From Hyphomicrobiales bacterium (lineage in GTDB: Bacteria > Pseudomonadota > Alphaproteobacteria > Rhizobiales > Xanthobacteraceae): a stretch of 64,000 nucleotides of DNA. Below, piece by piece: positions 18,122 through 60,590 of this stretch. A program made the translations under genes and the position numbers. The stretch is from the NCBI GenBank assembly GCA_016185205.1, contig JACPOA010000012.1, positions 1 through 64,000 of the forward strand, written 5' to 3'. The first letter of the stretch is position 1, and every line of letters begins with the position of its first letter. The notes beneath the pieces were generated by a model. The model made no database searches, was not told the origin of the DNA, and was given only the letters and a program-made list of their open reading frames with translations.

Positions 18122-18177
18122 TCTTATCCCTGCCCTCTTAGGGGACGGTGGCCGCCGAAGACGGCCGGGTGGGGTTG
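18122..18177. repeat. Solo, diverged copy of the DUF559-element end repeat
   Basis: This 56-bp sequence aligns to the left end of the DUF559 element (58739-58795): both begin TCTTATCCCT, continue with GGTGGCCGCCGAAG and end CGGGTGGGGT. Substitutions have weakened the first hairpin. A complementary CCCCACCCG follows at about 18198-18206. It marks the left edge of a lower-GC patch that contains a methyltransferase and a decayed gene. Confidence 0.75.
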
Positions 18178-19091: not shown

Positions 19092-20420
19092 TCATAACGC
19101 CTCGCCCCTGAGCAGCTTCGGCACGTCGCCGGTGAAGCCGGCGGCTTCGCGGATGAACATGTGCTTGAGCGCCGGAATCCGCTCGACAATCCCCAAGCCG
19201 ACATCGCGCGCCAGCCGCAGCACATCGGAGCGGTTGGAGAACAATCTATTCAAACCATCCGTGGCGACACCCATGGTCATAGTGTCGAAGCGCCGCCAGC
19301 GCTGATAACGCTCGAGCACGTCCGCCACGCCGATATCGAGCCCGAGTCGCGCCGCGTCGACGACCGCTTCGGCCAGCGCCGCCACATCGCGCAGGCCCAT
19401 ATTGAGTCCCTGGCCGGCGATCGGATGGATCACATGCGCGGCGTCGCCGACCAGCGCAAGCCGCTCGGCGATGAAGGAGCGCGCGGTGAACAGCCCGAGC
19501 GGAAAGGCGCGGCGCGGGCCGATCACTTCGAGATCGCCGAGATGCAGGCCGAAGCGCTTCTCCAGCTCGGCGTGAAATTCCGCGTCGGTGAGCGCGATGA
19601 CGCGCTCGGCCTCGCGCGTTTCTTCGGTCCACACGATCGAGGCGCGCCTGCCCATGAGCGGCAGAATTGCGAACGGCCCGGCGGGCAGGAAATGCTCCTC
19701 GGCGCGGCCGTTGTGCTCGCGCTCATGCGCCACCGTAGTGACGATGGCCGACTGATCGTAATTCCAGCCGTGCGTGGCGATGCCGGCCTGCTCGCGGATT
19801 TTCGACTTGGCGCCGTCGGCGCCGACCAGCAGGCGCGCGGAAAGTTTTTCGCCGTCGGCGAGCGTCACATCGATGCGTCGACTGACCCCCTCCACACTCC
19901 TCCCCCTTTCAGGGGGAGGAAGGTCGTGCTGCGAATCCTCCCTCCCCCTGAAAGGGGGAGGGTTGGGGTGGGGGTCATATGCAAATGAATCGACGGCAGT
20001 ACCCCGCAGATCAATACCGATCTCCTTCGCCTTCGCCACCAGCGCATCAATCAGGTGCCGGTTCTCGATCATGTGCGCGAACGGCTCGCCTTCTTCCACT
20101 TCGCCGCCGAAGGTGAGGAAGGTCGGCCGCACCGCGTCGTCGAGCTTGCTGTCGGTCACCACCATGTCGAGGATCGGCTGCGCCTCGTCGGCGACCGCGT
20201 CCCAGACCTCGATCGTCTCGAACAGCCGGCGCGCGGCGGCCGCGATCGCCGAGGCGCGCGGGTCCTTCGACTTGGACTGGCTGAGCGCCGGATCGACCAC
20301 CGTCACGGTGAAGGCCTCGCCCAGCGCCTCTCGCAAAGCGATCGCCAGCGCCAGGCCGGCAAAGCCCGCCCCGCCGATCAGCAGGTCGATTTTATGGTGT
20401 TGCTTCAGCGCTTTCGGCAT
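19092..20420 (-). CDS. FAD-dependent UbiH/UbiF/Coq6-type hydroxylase with a 31-codon repeat insert
   Basis: A 442-residue flavoprotein monooxygenase of ubiquinone biosynthesis type. It has the N-terminal FAD-binding GGAGFAGLALA (16-26), the mid-sequence LVGADGAKSKIREQAGI, and the C-terminal LALVGDAAHVIHPIAGQGLNMGLRD signature of the UbiH/COQ6 family. Residues 149-179 (DPHPNPPP...VEGV) are encoded exactly by a 93-bp palindromic element at 19884-19976, which sits in a loop before the ADGEKLSARLLVGADGA segment and keeps the reading frame. ATG 20420 is chosen by homology; a longer frame without homology continues upstream across tesB. Which ring position it hydroxylates cannot be told. Confidence 0.88.
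   Translation of the reverse strand: MPKALKQHHKIDLLIGGAGFAGLALAIALREALGEAFTVTVVDPALSQSKSKDPRASAIAAAARRLFETIEVWDAVADEAQPILDMVVTDSKLDDAVRPTFLTFGGEVEEGEPFAHMIENRHLIDALVAKAKEIGIDLRGTAVDSFAYDPHPNPPPFRGREDSQHDLPPPERGRSVEGVSRRIDVTLADGEKLSARLLVGADGAKSKIREQAGIATHGWNYDQSAIVTTVAHEREHNGRAEEHFLPAGPFAILPLMGRRASIVWTEETREAERVIALTDAEFHAELEKRFGLHLGDLEVIGPRRAFPLGLFTARSFIAERLALVGDAAHVIHPIAGQGLNMGLRDVAALAEAVVDAARLGLDIGVADVLERYQRWRRFDTMTMGVATDGLNRLFSNRSDVLRLARDVGLGIVERIPALKHMFIREAAGFTGDVPKLLRGEAL
19884..19976. repeat. 93-bp double-hairpin element inside the ubiH-like gene
   Basis: Ends are GACCCCC and GGGGGTC. Two hairpins, each CTCCCCC-tttcag/ctgaaa-GGGGGAG, are separated by about 20 bp. Length is exactly 93 bp, 31 codons, so the host frame is kept. 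The reverse complement of the element at 21401-21493 matches it at 88 of 93 positions by my alignment. Confidence 0.92.
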
Positions 20421-21398: not shown

Positions 21399-22295
21399 AT
21401 GACCCCCACCCCAACCCTCCCCCTTTCAGGGGGAGGGAGACATCGCCGCGCGACCTTCCTCCCCCTGAAAGGGGGAGGAGTGTGGAGGGGGTCAATACTT
21501 GCACTGTTGATTTTTGTGTCGTGCGTAAACTCCGCCCTCGCCGCGTCCGGCAAACAGCCGGCGCCGGCGGGCGCCTTGGCCGGCGCGCCGGCCGAATACA
21601 CAAGCTTCTCCGCCGCCGAACTCACGCGCGGATTTCTGGCGCTCGCCTTCGGCTCCGATCTGCGCATCGGCGCTGAGCCTCGCGGCATCCGCCGCTTCGA
21701 TCATCCGATCCGTGTCGCCGTGATCGCCGGCGGCAGCGTCGACCGCGGCGCGGCGATGGCGCGCGTCGTCGACGACTATGCCCGCAAGGTCCCCAACCTG
21801 CATCTGAGCCTGGTGGCCGCCTCCGCGCCGGCCGAGGTCGAGGTACGGCTGATCGACGAGCGGAATTTCAAATCGGCGCTGCAGGCGGCCTTCGGCGTGC
21901 AGGTCACCGCGGCCTTCATCGCGCGCACCGATCCGCAATGCATGACCAGCGTGAAATCGAGCGCCGACGGCGCTATCGTGCGCGCGGTCTCCTTCATCAT
22001 CGTCGACAAAAGCGAGGCTGTCTTTCTCGACTGCGCCTATCACGAGCTACTGCACGCCTTCGGCCTGTCCAACCATGACCAGCGCAATCCGTGGACCACG
22101 CTCAACCAGAAACGCATGGTCGGCTACCTGTCGGTCTATGACCGCGCTTTGCTCACCATCCTGTACGACGCGCGTGTCACGCCCGGGTTGACCGCCGACC
22201 GCGCCCGCGCCCGCGCCGTGCTGCCCGGCGTCATCCGCGACTTGGGCCCGAGCTTGGGCCTGGCCGCGCCGCCACGGCACAAACCGGCTAGATAA
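21399..22295 (+). CDS. DUF2927 family protein whose N-terminus is built by a repeat element
   Basis: A protein of up to 298 residues. The C-terminal 220 residues match the DUF2927 family by overall pattern: RFDHPIRVAVIAGG, then DCAYHELLHAFGLSNHD, a possible metal-binding HELLH motif, then LTILYDARVTPG. Function is unknown; a metal-dependent hydrolase role is speculation from HELLH. The ATG at 21399 and the alternative GTG at 21480 both lie in the 93-bp repeat. Using GTG 21480 gives a compact signal peptide (WRGSILALLIFVSCVNSALAA), which I think is nearer the real start. Confidence 0.7.
   Translation: MTPTPTLPLSGGGRHRRATFLPLKGGGVWRGSILALLIFVSCVNSALAASGKQPAPAGALAGAPAEYTSFSAAELTRGFLALAFGSDLRIGAEPRGIRRFDHPIRVAVIAGGSVDRGAAMARVVDDYARKVPNLHLSLVAASAPAEVEVRLIDERNFKSALQAAFGVQVTAAFIARTDPQCMTSVKSSADGAIVRAVSFIIVDKSEAVFLDCAYHELLHAFGLSNHDQRNPWTTLNQKRMVGYLSVYDRALLTILYDARVTPGLTADRARARAVLPGVIRDLGPSLGLAAPPRHKPAR
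21401..21493. repeat. 93-bp double-hairpin element at the 5' end of the DUF2927 gene
   Basis: Same length, same GACCCCC...GGGGGTC ends and same two hairpins as the element in ubiH, in the opposite orientation; the five differences are all between the hairpins. It overlaps the first codons of the downstream frame, giving it both possible start codons. Confidence 0.92.
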
Positions 22296-58316: not shown

Positions 58317-58739
58317 TTAGAAAGGCTTGACGGTCGCCAAGATCACGATGACGATCATCAGCACCGTCGGTATCTCATTGACGATACGGAAGAATTTCTG
58401 AGAATGCCGATTCCGGTCGTAGCTGAATTCGGTGGTCCAGTGCCCGAGCAGGCCGTGCATGATCGTCAGGGCGATTACCAAGATAAATTTTGCAATGAAC
58501 CAGCCGGACGCGAACCACTGGCCTTCGAACGCCAGCACGATGCCCACCACCCACGCGCCGATCATCGCCGGCATCATGATGAATTTATAGAGCCGGCGCT
58601 CCATCACCTTGAAGGTTTCCGACTGCTCGGAGCCGGGCGTTGCCTGCGCGTGATAGACGAACAGCCGCGGCAGATAGAGCAGGCCCGCCATCCACGAGAT
58701 GACGGCGATGATGTGCAGGGCTTTGAGGGTGAGATACAT
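58317..58739 (-). CDS. hemJ: Protoporphyrinogen oxidase HemJ
   Basis: A 140-residue integral membrane protein with four helices (LHIIAVISWMAGLLYLPRLFVYH, MMPAMIGAWVVGIVLAFEG, WFIAKFILVIALTIMHGLL, NEIPTVLMIVIVILATV). The conserved His in LHIIAVISWM and Lys residues in the C-terminus fit HemJ of heme biosynthesis (protoporphyrinogen IX to protoporphyrin IX). Its start codon touches the left end of the DUF559 element, and the GGGGAGGGATAAG of that end serves as the ribosome-binding site. The DUF559 stop TAA is 1 bp from the hemJ ATG. Confidence 0.92.
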   Translation of the reverse strand: MYLTLKALHIIAVISWMAGLLYLPRLFVYHAQATPGSEQSETFKVMERRLYKFIMMPAMIGAWVVGIVLAFEGQWFASGWFIAKFILVIALTIMHGLLGHWTTEFSYDRNRHSQKFFRIVNEIPTVLMIVIVILATVKPF

Positions 58740-59184
58740 CTTATCCCTCCCCTGAAAGGGGAGGGTGGCCGCCGAAGGTGGCCGGGTGGGGTTTGCTCTC
58801 CATCAGGGCAGCATCGATGGTTTCCAGTATGCCGTCCAGATTTGAATCGACGTCGCTGTTCCAAAAGCGCAGTACACGAAAACCAGAACGTATCAACGTC
58901 TGGTCGCGCTTTTCATCGGCGGTCGCGTGAGCTTTTAGATTGTGCTGACCGCCGTCGATTTCGACAACAAGTCCGTACTTCAAACAAACGAAATCGACGA
59001 TGTATCCCTTGCGCGGGGCCTGACGGCGGAAATGATATCCTCGCTTGCGCCAAGACCGCAGATGATTCCAGACTTTCACCTCCTGCTGGGTCATCGTCTT
59101 GCGGAGACGTCTTGCGATTTGGTTGGCCATACCCCACCCGTCTCGCTTCGCTCGCCACCCTCCCCTTTCAGGGGAGGGATAAGA
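58739..59184. mobile_element. 446-bp candidate mobile element: DUF559 gene between perfect 31-bp inverted repeats
   Basis: 58739-58769 and 59154-59184 are a perfect 31-bp inverted repeat, each starting TCTTATCCCT and carrying its own hairpin CTCCCC-tgaaa-GGGGAG. Inward of each lies a further partly conserved GGTGGGG/CCCCACC stretch. The unit fills exactly the gap between hemE (stop 59186) and hemJ (start 58739). A solo diverged copy of the end is at 18122-18177. No target duplication is evident. Confidence 0.7.
58741..59130 (-). CDS. DUF559 endonuclease-like protein
   Basis: A 129-residue DUF559 protein, a restriction-endonuclease-like fold related to the Vsr type: MTQQEVKVWNHLRSWRKRGYHFRRQAPRKGYIVDFVCLKYGLVVEIDGGQHN, with the D and E-x-D catalytic acids in IVDFVC and VVEIDGGQH, then VLRFWNSDVDSNLDGILETI. 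The last 17 residues (KPHPATFGGHPPLSGEG) and the stop codon come from the left inverted repeat. Start ATG 59130 lies just inside the right repeat. It is wedged in the heme operon but does not resemble any heme enzyme. Its activity is untested; DUF559 proteins are thought to be nucleases by fold. Confidence 0.82.
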   Translation of the reverse strand: MANQIARRLRKTMTQQEVKVWNHLRSWRKRGYHFRRQAPRKGYIVDFVCLKYGLVVEIDGGQHNLKAHATADEKRDQTLIRSGFRVLRFWNSDVDSNLDGILETIDAALMESKPHPATFGGHPPLSGEG

Positions 59185-59185
59185 G

Positions 59186-60238
59186 TCATCTCCGCATCCG
59201 CTTCAGCATCTGCTCGACATGCGCGATCGGCGTATTGGGCAGAATGCCGTGGCCGAGATTGAAGATGAGACGGCCGCCCGAGAGCGTCGCCATCACGTCA
59301 TCGACTTCGCGCTCGAGCGCGGTGCCGCCGGCAAGCAGCGCGAGCGGGTCGACATTGCCCTGCACCGCTACGCGCGATTGCAGCGTATCGCGCGCGATCT
59401 CACGCTCGAAGGTCCAGTCGATGCCGATGCCGTTCACGCCAGTCATGTCGGCATAGGCTAATGCCATCGCGCTGACGCCGCGCGGAAAACCGATAATCTT
59501 GGCGCCCGGGACCTGCCGGCGCACACCCTCGACGATTTTCTGCGTCGGCTGGATACACCAGCGCTCGAATTGTTCGGGTCCCAGCACGCCTGCCCAGGTA
59601 TCAAAAATCTGCACGCATTCGGCGCCGGCCTTCAGTTGCCCGACCAGATATTCGATCGAGCCCTGCACCAGCCGGTCGATCAACCGGCCGAAACCAGCCG
59701 GATCGCGATAGGCGAACAGCCGCGCCGGCGCTTGATCGGGCGTCGCCTCGCCCGCTACCATATAAGTAGCCACCGTCCAGGGCGCGCCGCAAAATCCGAT
59801 CAGTGTGGTCTTGCTGTCGAGCGCCGACTTGACCCGTGACACGGTCTCATAGACTGGGGCTAGTACCTTTGTATCGATGGTCTCGTGCAGACTATCCAGC
59901 GCTGCGGTATCGGCCAGCGGCTCCAGTCTGGGTCCTTCGCCAACCTGAAACTCAACCTTGCGACCGAGCGCCAGCGGGATCACCAGAATATCGGAAAACA
60001 AAATCGCGGCATCGAAGCCGAAGCGCCTCACCGGCTGTAAAGTGACTTCCGCCGCCAACTCGGGATTGAAGCAAAGGTCGAGAAATCCTCCAGCTTTCTC
60101 ACGCACCGCACGATATTCCGGCAGATACCGGCCGGCTTGCCGCATCATCCAGACCGGTGGGATCGCTTCGCGAGCGCCATCCAGCACGCGAAGCAGCGGC
60201 TTTATCCCCACACTCTCAGTTTGGTAAGCTTCTTCCAT
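59186..60238 (-). CDS. hemE: Uroporphyrinogen decarboxylase
   Basis: A 350-residue TIM-barrel enzyme making coproporphyrinogen [20 protein letters not shown] near residue 30 is the substrate-binding signature, with FSDILVIP, then [16 protein letters not shown], and GIGIDWTF later. The start ATG 60238 is used because the frame upstream (to 60301) lies in the origin region. It precedes the DUF559 element and hemJ in the same direction. The Hyphomicrobiales chromosome origin is next to hemE. Confidence 0.95.
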
Positions 60239-60590
60239 AAAGACTCTTATAAGACTCTTTGTAGTGTTTATTAGGCGGTTGATTGGACTCATGACTCGCA
60301 AGCGACAATCTGTCCACCGGCTGGCGCGGGTGAATTCAGAATCGAGTGCTATTCAGTCGCAGGCTATCCACAGCGGCAATGGCGGTTTTATTGGGCTTTT
60401 GCCATTCTATCCCCCGATGTCCCCAGACCGGCGTCCACAATCCTGCATCGCCGTCCGTTCGGTGTTCCAGCATTGTCCCGCGATCAGCCATGTGGATGGA
60501 AATAACACGCCCGACCAGTGTCGGCTTGCGTGAGGGTCAAAGCCGTGGCCTCCTCCCATGGTATCCACAGCTCATCCTGTTGTCATACAG
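60239..60590. other. Probable chromosome replication origin (oriC) between hemE and ppsR
   Basis: Non-coding divergent region. An AT-rich start (60239-60286) with direct repeat AGACTCTT (60241 and 60253) could be the unwinding element. DnaA-box-like 9-mers one base from TTATCCACA: CTATCCACA (60364-60372), GTATCCACA (60561-60569), TTATCCCCA (60202-60210, inside hemE). A two-mismatch box TGTGGATGG sits in reverse at 60491-60499; GTCCACAA near 60432 is weaker. Location beside hemE fits oriC of Caulobacter and Hyphomicrobiales; parAB-parS lie 10-15 kb away. Confidence 0.7.

Follow-up and report, generated by a model that had tools for sequence, protein, structure and literature searches.

What is a nuclease gene doing between two perfect inverted repeats in the gap between hemE and hemJ, and do the repeats belong to it? 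The locus lies in the window, by which we mean the whole 64,000-nucleotide stretch analysed, and the genome that contains it comprises 4.38 Mb in 112 contigs, the window being contig 21. An initial annotation had reported a 446-bp unit with perfect 31-bp inverted repeats around a DUF559 gene, and had likened the possible role of DUF559 to that of the RAYT transposases, which are flanked by REP sequences. On the evidence set out below, we consider it somewhat probable that DUF559 and these repeats form a partnership like that of REPINs and RAYTs, the nuclease being unrelated to the latter.

The unit in the hemE-hemJ gap

The DUF559 gene (58741-59130, minus strand; 129 residues) was identified through Pfam family PF04480, an AlphaFold2 model and a fold search, and is set between hemE (URO-D; 59186-60301, minus strand) upstream and hemJ (UPF0093; 58317-58739, minus strand) downstream, both assigned by profile match. 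Alignment bears out the annotated unit: the longest perfect inverted match is of 31 bp, pairing 58739-58769 with 59154-59184, and tolerating mismatches lengthens the arms to 65 bp at 83%. The perfect arms are the outer halves of two REP-like units of ~53 bp, each made up of two hairpins, at 58739-58791 (left, plus strand) and 59132-59184 (right, minus strand). Both have the outer hairpin CCCTCCCC-TGAAA-GGGGAGGG; the second part is hairpin-capable and variable in sequence, the middle of the right unit differing from that of the left, and it is followed by an inner tail, GGGTGGGG, directed towards the gene. The internal hairpin previously claimed for each repeat is present in that each arm folds; the DNA fold of the left unit contains both hairpins (z -3.9), and the lowest-energy DNA fold of the right unit only the first (z -1.6).

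The ATG of DUF559 directly follows the inner GGGTGGGGT of the right unit, and its TAA falls within the left arm, 1 bp from the ATG of hemJ (58739), with the C-terminal residues PHPATFGGHPPLSGEG being encoded by the left repeat unit. The hemJ ATG is preceded by GGGGAGGGATAAG, its ribosome-binding-like GGGGAGGG is part of the left unit, and the first base of hemJ is itself included in the perfect arm; thus, the annotation was correct both in the spacing of the DUF559 stop and the hemJ start and in having the element supply a Shine-Dalgarno-like stretch to hemJ. At the other end, 1 bp separates the unit from the hemE stop (59186). The description of the element as 'exactly filling' the gap holds for the window, and fails for the relatives, where the gap contains various palindromes. 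As in the annotation, no target duplication was found at the window unit.

A search of the 4.38-Mb genome for a 17-bp core of the repeat, with two mismatches at most, gives 26 occurrences, as against none for the reversed control pattern. By eye, many of these copies are one half of an inward inverted pair, with a spacer of ~20-30 bases that varies between copies, and others are single or truncated; the suggestion that the remaining repeats may be solo derivatives of the unit would apply to some of them, many being halves of inward pairs (REPINs). The solo end copy annotated at 18122-18177 (plus strand) is real, albeit diverged, having 4-5 mismatches in a 21-bp core and a fold no better than those of shuffled sequences (z -0.29). 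Elsewhere in the window, two outward-facing CCTCCCCCTGAAAGGGGGAGG palindrome pairs lie 1.5 kb apart, at 19899-19961 and 21416-21478; these are of a related but different flavour.

The encoded protein matches PF04480 with 118.9 bits (gathering cut-off 20.6; E 1.2e-34), a family that Pfam still labels as being of unknown function. Its AlphaFold2 model (pLDDT 85) has 3HRL, I-Bth0305I and Vsr as its nearest folds, and there is a profile match to I-Bth0305I as well. The EDxHD-type fold and the likeness to the catalytic domain are both present: across 18 sequences, Glu17, Asp46 and Glu57 are invariant, and Asp59, His63 and Asp72 are nearly so. It differs from I-Bth0305I (3R3P), an EDxHD-type homing endonuclease, in that no intron or intein is seen at the gene, and in that the protein consists of little beyond the catalytic domain and is framed by hairpins; it differs from Vsr, and from VsrA of Caulobacter, in its NCBIfam vsr score of 20 bits, which is under the cut-off of 97.85. 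Additionally, there are weak matches to parts of two PADLOC defence proteins, mREase_II (E 3.6e-6) and DpdF (E 1.6e-5).

DUF559 is under purifying selection, with pN/pS values of 0.11-0.37 in 24 Pseudolabrys pairs, for which synonymous sites are mostly near-saturated; the medians at two other sites are 0.10 and 0.14, and those of neighbouring genes are 0.05 and 0.10. Such constraint would be expected if DUF559 had an unrelated role for its host, such as Vsr-like mismatch repair or defence, and the repeats gathered around the gene or carried it passively. There is a precedent in Caulobacter VsrA, itself a DUF559 protein: in PMC12907096, it is reported to cause an SOS response in the absence of a solitary cytosine methyltransferase, which its authors ascribe to a proposed role in very-short-patch repair. 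We nevertheless hold passive gathering to be unlikely, on account of the flavour matching at unrelated sites, the lack of bracketing at other tested genes and the repeat numbers, all of which are described below.

Inverted arms around other DUF559 genes

DUF559 loci were gathered across 40 relatives (Pseudolabrys and its order), and each was given an arm score, defined as the best inverted alignment of the 200 bp before against the 200 bp after the DUF559 domain. From 82 loci, two duplicates (L002 and L006) were dropped, four fused loci were set apart and five with short flanks were left out, giving 71 standalone loci. Inverted arms with a score of at least 20 flank 57 of these, compared with 12% of 837 cross-paired flanks; the other 14 are without strong arms. 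Among control genes of the same genomes, none reached even 18 (hemJ, 0/28; other large ORFs, 0/30; large ORFs around GIY-YIG domains in long frames, 0/19, this last control using 19 of 20 loci whose identity as UvrC was assumed from length). To the annotation's question of whether the ends flank DUF559 genes more often than chance, the answer is that they do so far more than they flank other genes, and arms of matching flavour are found at further DUF559 genes.

The window's genome contains six DUF559 domains, one of which follows a SpoU-type RNA methylase domain in a fused protein; this copy has lost the DGGQH stretch and is without arms. In 22 of the 24 genus genomes, a single DUF559 match lies in a frame of 400-522 residues, fitting this fusion, and methyltransferase-fused loci had arm scores of only 9-11 in all four cases tested; the fusion looks domesticated. 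A methyltransferase-DUF559 fusion was noted earlier, in PMC1829167. Fusions of the SpoU type were seen at L006 and L137-L140, the domain having been identified in L137.

Outside the genus, the arrangement was followed in two sets. Among 80 named loci chosen by similarity (from Bradyrhizobium, Methylorubrum, Sphingopyxis, Dyella, Geobacteraceae, Nitrospirae and others), 54 scored at least 20, against 7% of cross-paired flanks; one of these (L154) owes its score to N runs, and the set is partly non-independent, as L150 repeats L071 and the values of L202 equal those of L069. In a phylum-wide draw of 299 genomes, 10 of the 29 best-scoring loci reached 20 and 19 fell below it (cross-paired flanks, 7%). 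The direct-orientation control is weak outside the genus, 35% reaching at least 20, because each hairpin is itself palindromic. With arms at 54 of 80 and 10 of 29 loci, the association between DUF559 and arms is therefore wide, and not universal.

The arms are, moreover, matched to the protein. Protein identity and arm similarity were compared in 1,635 pairs of loci, the two members of each pair being from different genomes and different sites; they are correlated with a Spearman coefficient of 0.29, a value reached by none of 500 permutations. At protein identities of at least 60%, the arms are shared (score of at least 25) in 42 of 54 pairs, compared with 8-15% of pairs at 40-60% identity; this concentration of sharing at high identity implies that repeat flavour and nuclease type travel together. 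It is scarcely credible, then, that the arms are mere transcription terminators or mRNA-stabilizing hairpins selected around a small gene: they do fold stably, as such elements should, but neither the division of each arm into two parts, with an inner tail directed at the gene, nor flavours that match the protein clade, nor control genes devoid of such arms fit that explanation. Across these sets, the pairing of DUF559 with hairpins is recurrent in many bacteria, and this suggests that such enzymes help to spread short genomic palindromes.

Repeat numbers, geometry and likeness to REPINs

Two repeat patterns, flavours A and B, were counted in the 40 relatives, with the reversed controls giving zero everywhere, and DUF559 genes were counted if they matched with E below 1e-20, were not fused and had no internal stop. 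Six genomes of the genus have no intact standalone DUF559, and contain 0, 0, 0, 1, 3 and 5 repeats of the two flavours combined, compared with 6-75 in the 18 genomes that do have one (Mann-Whitney p 1.8e-4); over all 24, repeat number follows DUF559 number with a Spearman coefficient of 0.82, the units' own arms being included. This correlation is partly built in, because those arms are themselves counted; on removing two per intact unit, whatever its flavour, the 18 genomes range from 0 to 65 (three of them at 0, 1 and 4), the Spearman coefficient falls to 0.59 and the Mann-Whitney p rises to 0.0012. The weaker link after removal of the arms is what passive gathering around a host gene might produce, but the near absence of repeats (0-5) from genomes in which no intact standalone copy was found is not. 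These p-values are optimistic, given the relatedness of the genomes and the draft, incomplete state of many of them. Resolved by flavour, flavour B depends on its own DUF559 clade (p 0.0014), whereas flavour A shows no strict dependence on the clade that corresponds to it (p 0.11), which is missing from two genomes that each have 46 copies.

The geometry of flavour-A repeats was examined at 118 sites in ten genomes, among the sites listed (G006, G009, G015, G018, G028 and G038 were left out). Neighbouring sites up to 600 bp apart face inwards in 31 cases and outwards in one; 27 of the inward pairs measure 91-137 bp, and the other four, at 394-415 bp, are DUF559 units. As the gene-less pairs and the DUF559 units thus have the same geometry, the unit can be viewed as a REPIN with a gene for its spacer. 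The excess of gene-less inward pairs over DUF559 units in this typed set, 27 to 4, would also suit a mover acting in trans (a RAYT, an IS transposase or a GIY-YIG nuclease) that shifts the repeats and has captured DUF559 as a passenger. This we regard as quite unlikely: the Y1 transposase family of the RAYTs (PF01797), the family used for the transposase search, exceeds its cut-off in none of the 24 genus genomes, the window's genome having one sub-threshold match, and the GIY-YIG nucleases are considered in the next section.

The second hairpin changes in sequence and keeps its pairing: 83% of 58 distinct units, all caught by one pattern, are at least 0.8 complementary, compared with 14% of shuffles and 34% of chimeras joining halves of different units. 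This points to a structure that is recognized or restored, although palindrome correction during replication could achieve the same. Concerted evolution of the two arms was entertained as a general rule and rejected, as identity within units (0.855) is lower than that between orthologues (0.892); of 29 pairs entered, 24 were usable, and identity within the unit was the larger in seven and equal in three, the window unit being an exception to the trend. The within-unit value is lowered because the automatic arm finder took another palindrome in L117 and L125. At L306, one REP unit has further palindromes nested in its outer hairpin, which gives the impression of one palindrome inserting into another.

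A comparison with the REPIN/RAYT systems brings out both likeness and difference. In PMC3116915 and PMC3733652, those systems have few enzyme genes per genome, each beside its own hairpin flavour, with gene-less inverted pairs elsewhere; here, too, an enzyme gene is enclosed by REPs of its own genome in inverted orientation, and these REPs are also found as inward pairs. The window enzyme, however, is a PD-(D/E)XK/Vsr-like DUF559 protein (PF04480), whereas a RAYT is an HUH Y1 tyrosine transposase (PF01797), and REPs of that kind carry a GTAG tag, which a reading of the window units does not reveal at their ends. The system is, therefore, alike in anatomy and population structure, and it departs from REPIN/RAYT in the enzyme that defines them.

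We propose that the 446-bp unit belongs to a REP/REPIN family as a form that bears a nuclease, in which two inward hairpin repeats would enclose the gene of a Vsr/homing-type endonuclease at the position where ordinary REPINs of the family have a short spacer. DUF559 most likely recognizes the hairpin ends cognate to it, or else some structured target, and nicks or cuts there; host repair or replication would then copy the hairpin pair to other intergenic places, usually without the gene. Candidate routes for this copying are homing-like repair and single-strand transposition as proposed for RAYTs. A covalent tyrosine link of the kind formed by RAYTs is not expected of a Vsr or PD-(D/E)XK nuclease, and copying would therefore more plausibly fall to host repair or replication once a nick or cut has been made, as happens in homing. 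The unit itself would often be inherited vertically, and occasionally move, flip or be replaced. Thus, of the RAYT-like role first suggested for DUF559, the partnership is favoured by the bracketing, the flavour matching, the counts and the lack of a RAYT over cut-off in the genus genomes; the binding and cutting of hairpins, and a resulting spread of repeats, are inferred.

Insertion sites and GIY-YIG units

The hemE-hemJ gap, taken from the end of aligned hemE to the start of hemJ, measures 12-27 bp in 8 of the 20 genus relatives for which the locus was fetched. G000 and G011 have a DUF559 unit there, G017 and G023 have single ends that are truncated, and still other relatives have palindromes of unrelated kinds; at L036, L041, L047 and L049, another palindrome family is present (GGTTCGAGACGCGCAGC... 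/ ...CGCGTCTCGAAGGATGG or similar). The comparison with relatives that the annotation had recommended thus reveals a gap that varies, with no clean empty site at this position. The units of G000 and G011 may not be one inherited insertion, as the G011 gene groups with a gene from another site (tree support 0.87-0.91); being grouped away from the window gene, it implies that the gap may have been filled twice.

One unit has been inverted in place: G013 and G014 (L104 and L106) have a DUF559 unit at the same position in opposite orientations. Once one is flipped, the flanks are identical at 348 of 394 and 364 of 401 positions, and the orientation switches within the 26 bp of arm that the two species share, or at its edge; the event could have been one of ordinary recombination between arms. 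At a further Pseudolabrys site, L075, L102, L103, L109, L111, L115 and L117 share flanks and present DUF559 units of differing clades and flavours from species to species.

Another gap, which we take from its sequence to be that between dnaN and recF, has DUF559 units in both Pseudolabrys and Bradyrhizobium. For L180, the Bradyrhizobium unit, matches to both flanks lie next to the units of L077, L084 and L108; in L100 and L119, the right flank alone is adjacent. This occupation of one site across genera, as well as the purifying selection on DUF559, would agree with a nuclease that acts on the repeats (in repair, chromosome structure or killing after loss) and does not spread them. We think such maintenance or addiction quite unlikely, given that related DUF559 units are found at unrelated sites with the same arms, and that 6 of the 24 genus genomes do without an intact standalone copy.

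The same gap was surveyed in the 30 best-matching of 116 genomes (inferred to be Bradyrhizobium; L284-L313), together with L180. Intact DUF559 is present in 12 of the 31, and a GIY-YIG nuclease unit (PF01541, E 4.6e-16) with palindromes of its own in 8, assigned by a text rule; GIY-YIG-bearing loci were noted at L285, L289, L291, L292, L301, L303, L307 and L311. Otherwise, the gap contains palindrome pairs, broken copies, remnants or almost nothing, such that DUF559 units, GIY-YIG units and gene-less palindromes alternate at one site among close species. At a site presumed to be glcD-glcE (inferred Mesorhizobium), one species (L266) has a single hairpin alone and another (L267) has nothing. 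No target duplication was found at the hemE-hemJ, dnaN-recF or glcD-glcE sites, where the sister sites are too diverged, nor was a clean empty site found to set against a unit-bearing sister; L267, L309 and L312 are without a unit and are too different.

Standalone GIY-YIG genes are frequently bracketed in their turn. The 30 best and the next 40 standalone genes in the match list of the 40 genomes (L314-L383) yielded 68 with usable flanks, of which 39 have inverted flanks scoring at least 18 (cross-paired, 5%). A CGTC-type hairpin, recognized as a stem-loop starting with GTCAT or GTCGT, is present on both sides and directed inwards in 18 of the 68, and outwards in three. CGTC REPs differ in sequence from those of the window and here bracket GIY-YIG genes, although both kinds are palindromic inverted dimers. 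In PMC3733652, CGTC REPs are described as palindromic inverted dimers that are common in Alphaproteobacteria and lack a dedicated transposase, which is posed as an open question; the GIY-YIG nuclease is a candidate for the missing enzyme.

The count of one CGTC pattern follows GIY-YIG number (matches minus one UvrC-size gene) with a Spearman coefficient of 0.74, own arms included. The partial correlation of CGTC repeats is 0.64 with GIY-YIG given DUF559 and 0.55 with DUF559 given GIY-YIG; the specificity is therefore incomplete, and part of the link between DUF559 and its repeats may reflect general permissiveness, a point in favour of repeats that gather passively around a host gene. For the A and B repeats, the partial correlation is 0.77 with DUF559 given GIY-YIG number (uncorrected counts) and 0.16 with GIY-YIG given DUF559. 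Thus, although GIY-YIG nucleases are also bracketed by repeats, as a mover in trans might be, their number hardly accounts for those of the window's kind and, where tested, their genes have a different repeat type.

REP-like palindromes occupy the intergenic DNA of many bacteria, and in the papers found an enzyme had been proposed for the GTAG kind only; DUF559 is a concrete candidate for the enzyme of a second large kind, and the same reasoning can be extended to GIY-YIG and the CGTC kind. We see an even chance that hairpin-bounded nuclease units form a general class of bacterial replicator with an interchangeable enzyme (HUH with GTAG, a pairing already known, DUF559 with CCYTCYCC-type and GIY-YIG with CGTC repeats), whose members compete for intergenic sites, the dnaN-recF gap being an example, and explain much of the palindromic repeat content of the Proteobacteria. 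Among open PMC full texts, none was found that links DUF559, Vsr or GIY-YIG genes to REPs; preprints and subscription papers lie largely outside that search, and earlier notice is possible. The bracketed units also give DUF559 a setting, and suggest a different way of viewing the DNA damage ascribed to VsrA in Caulobacter.
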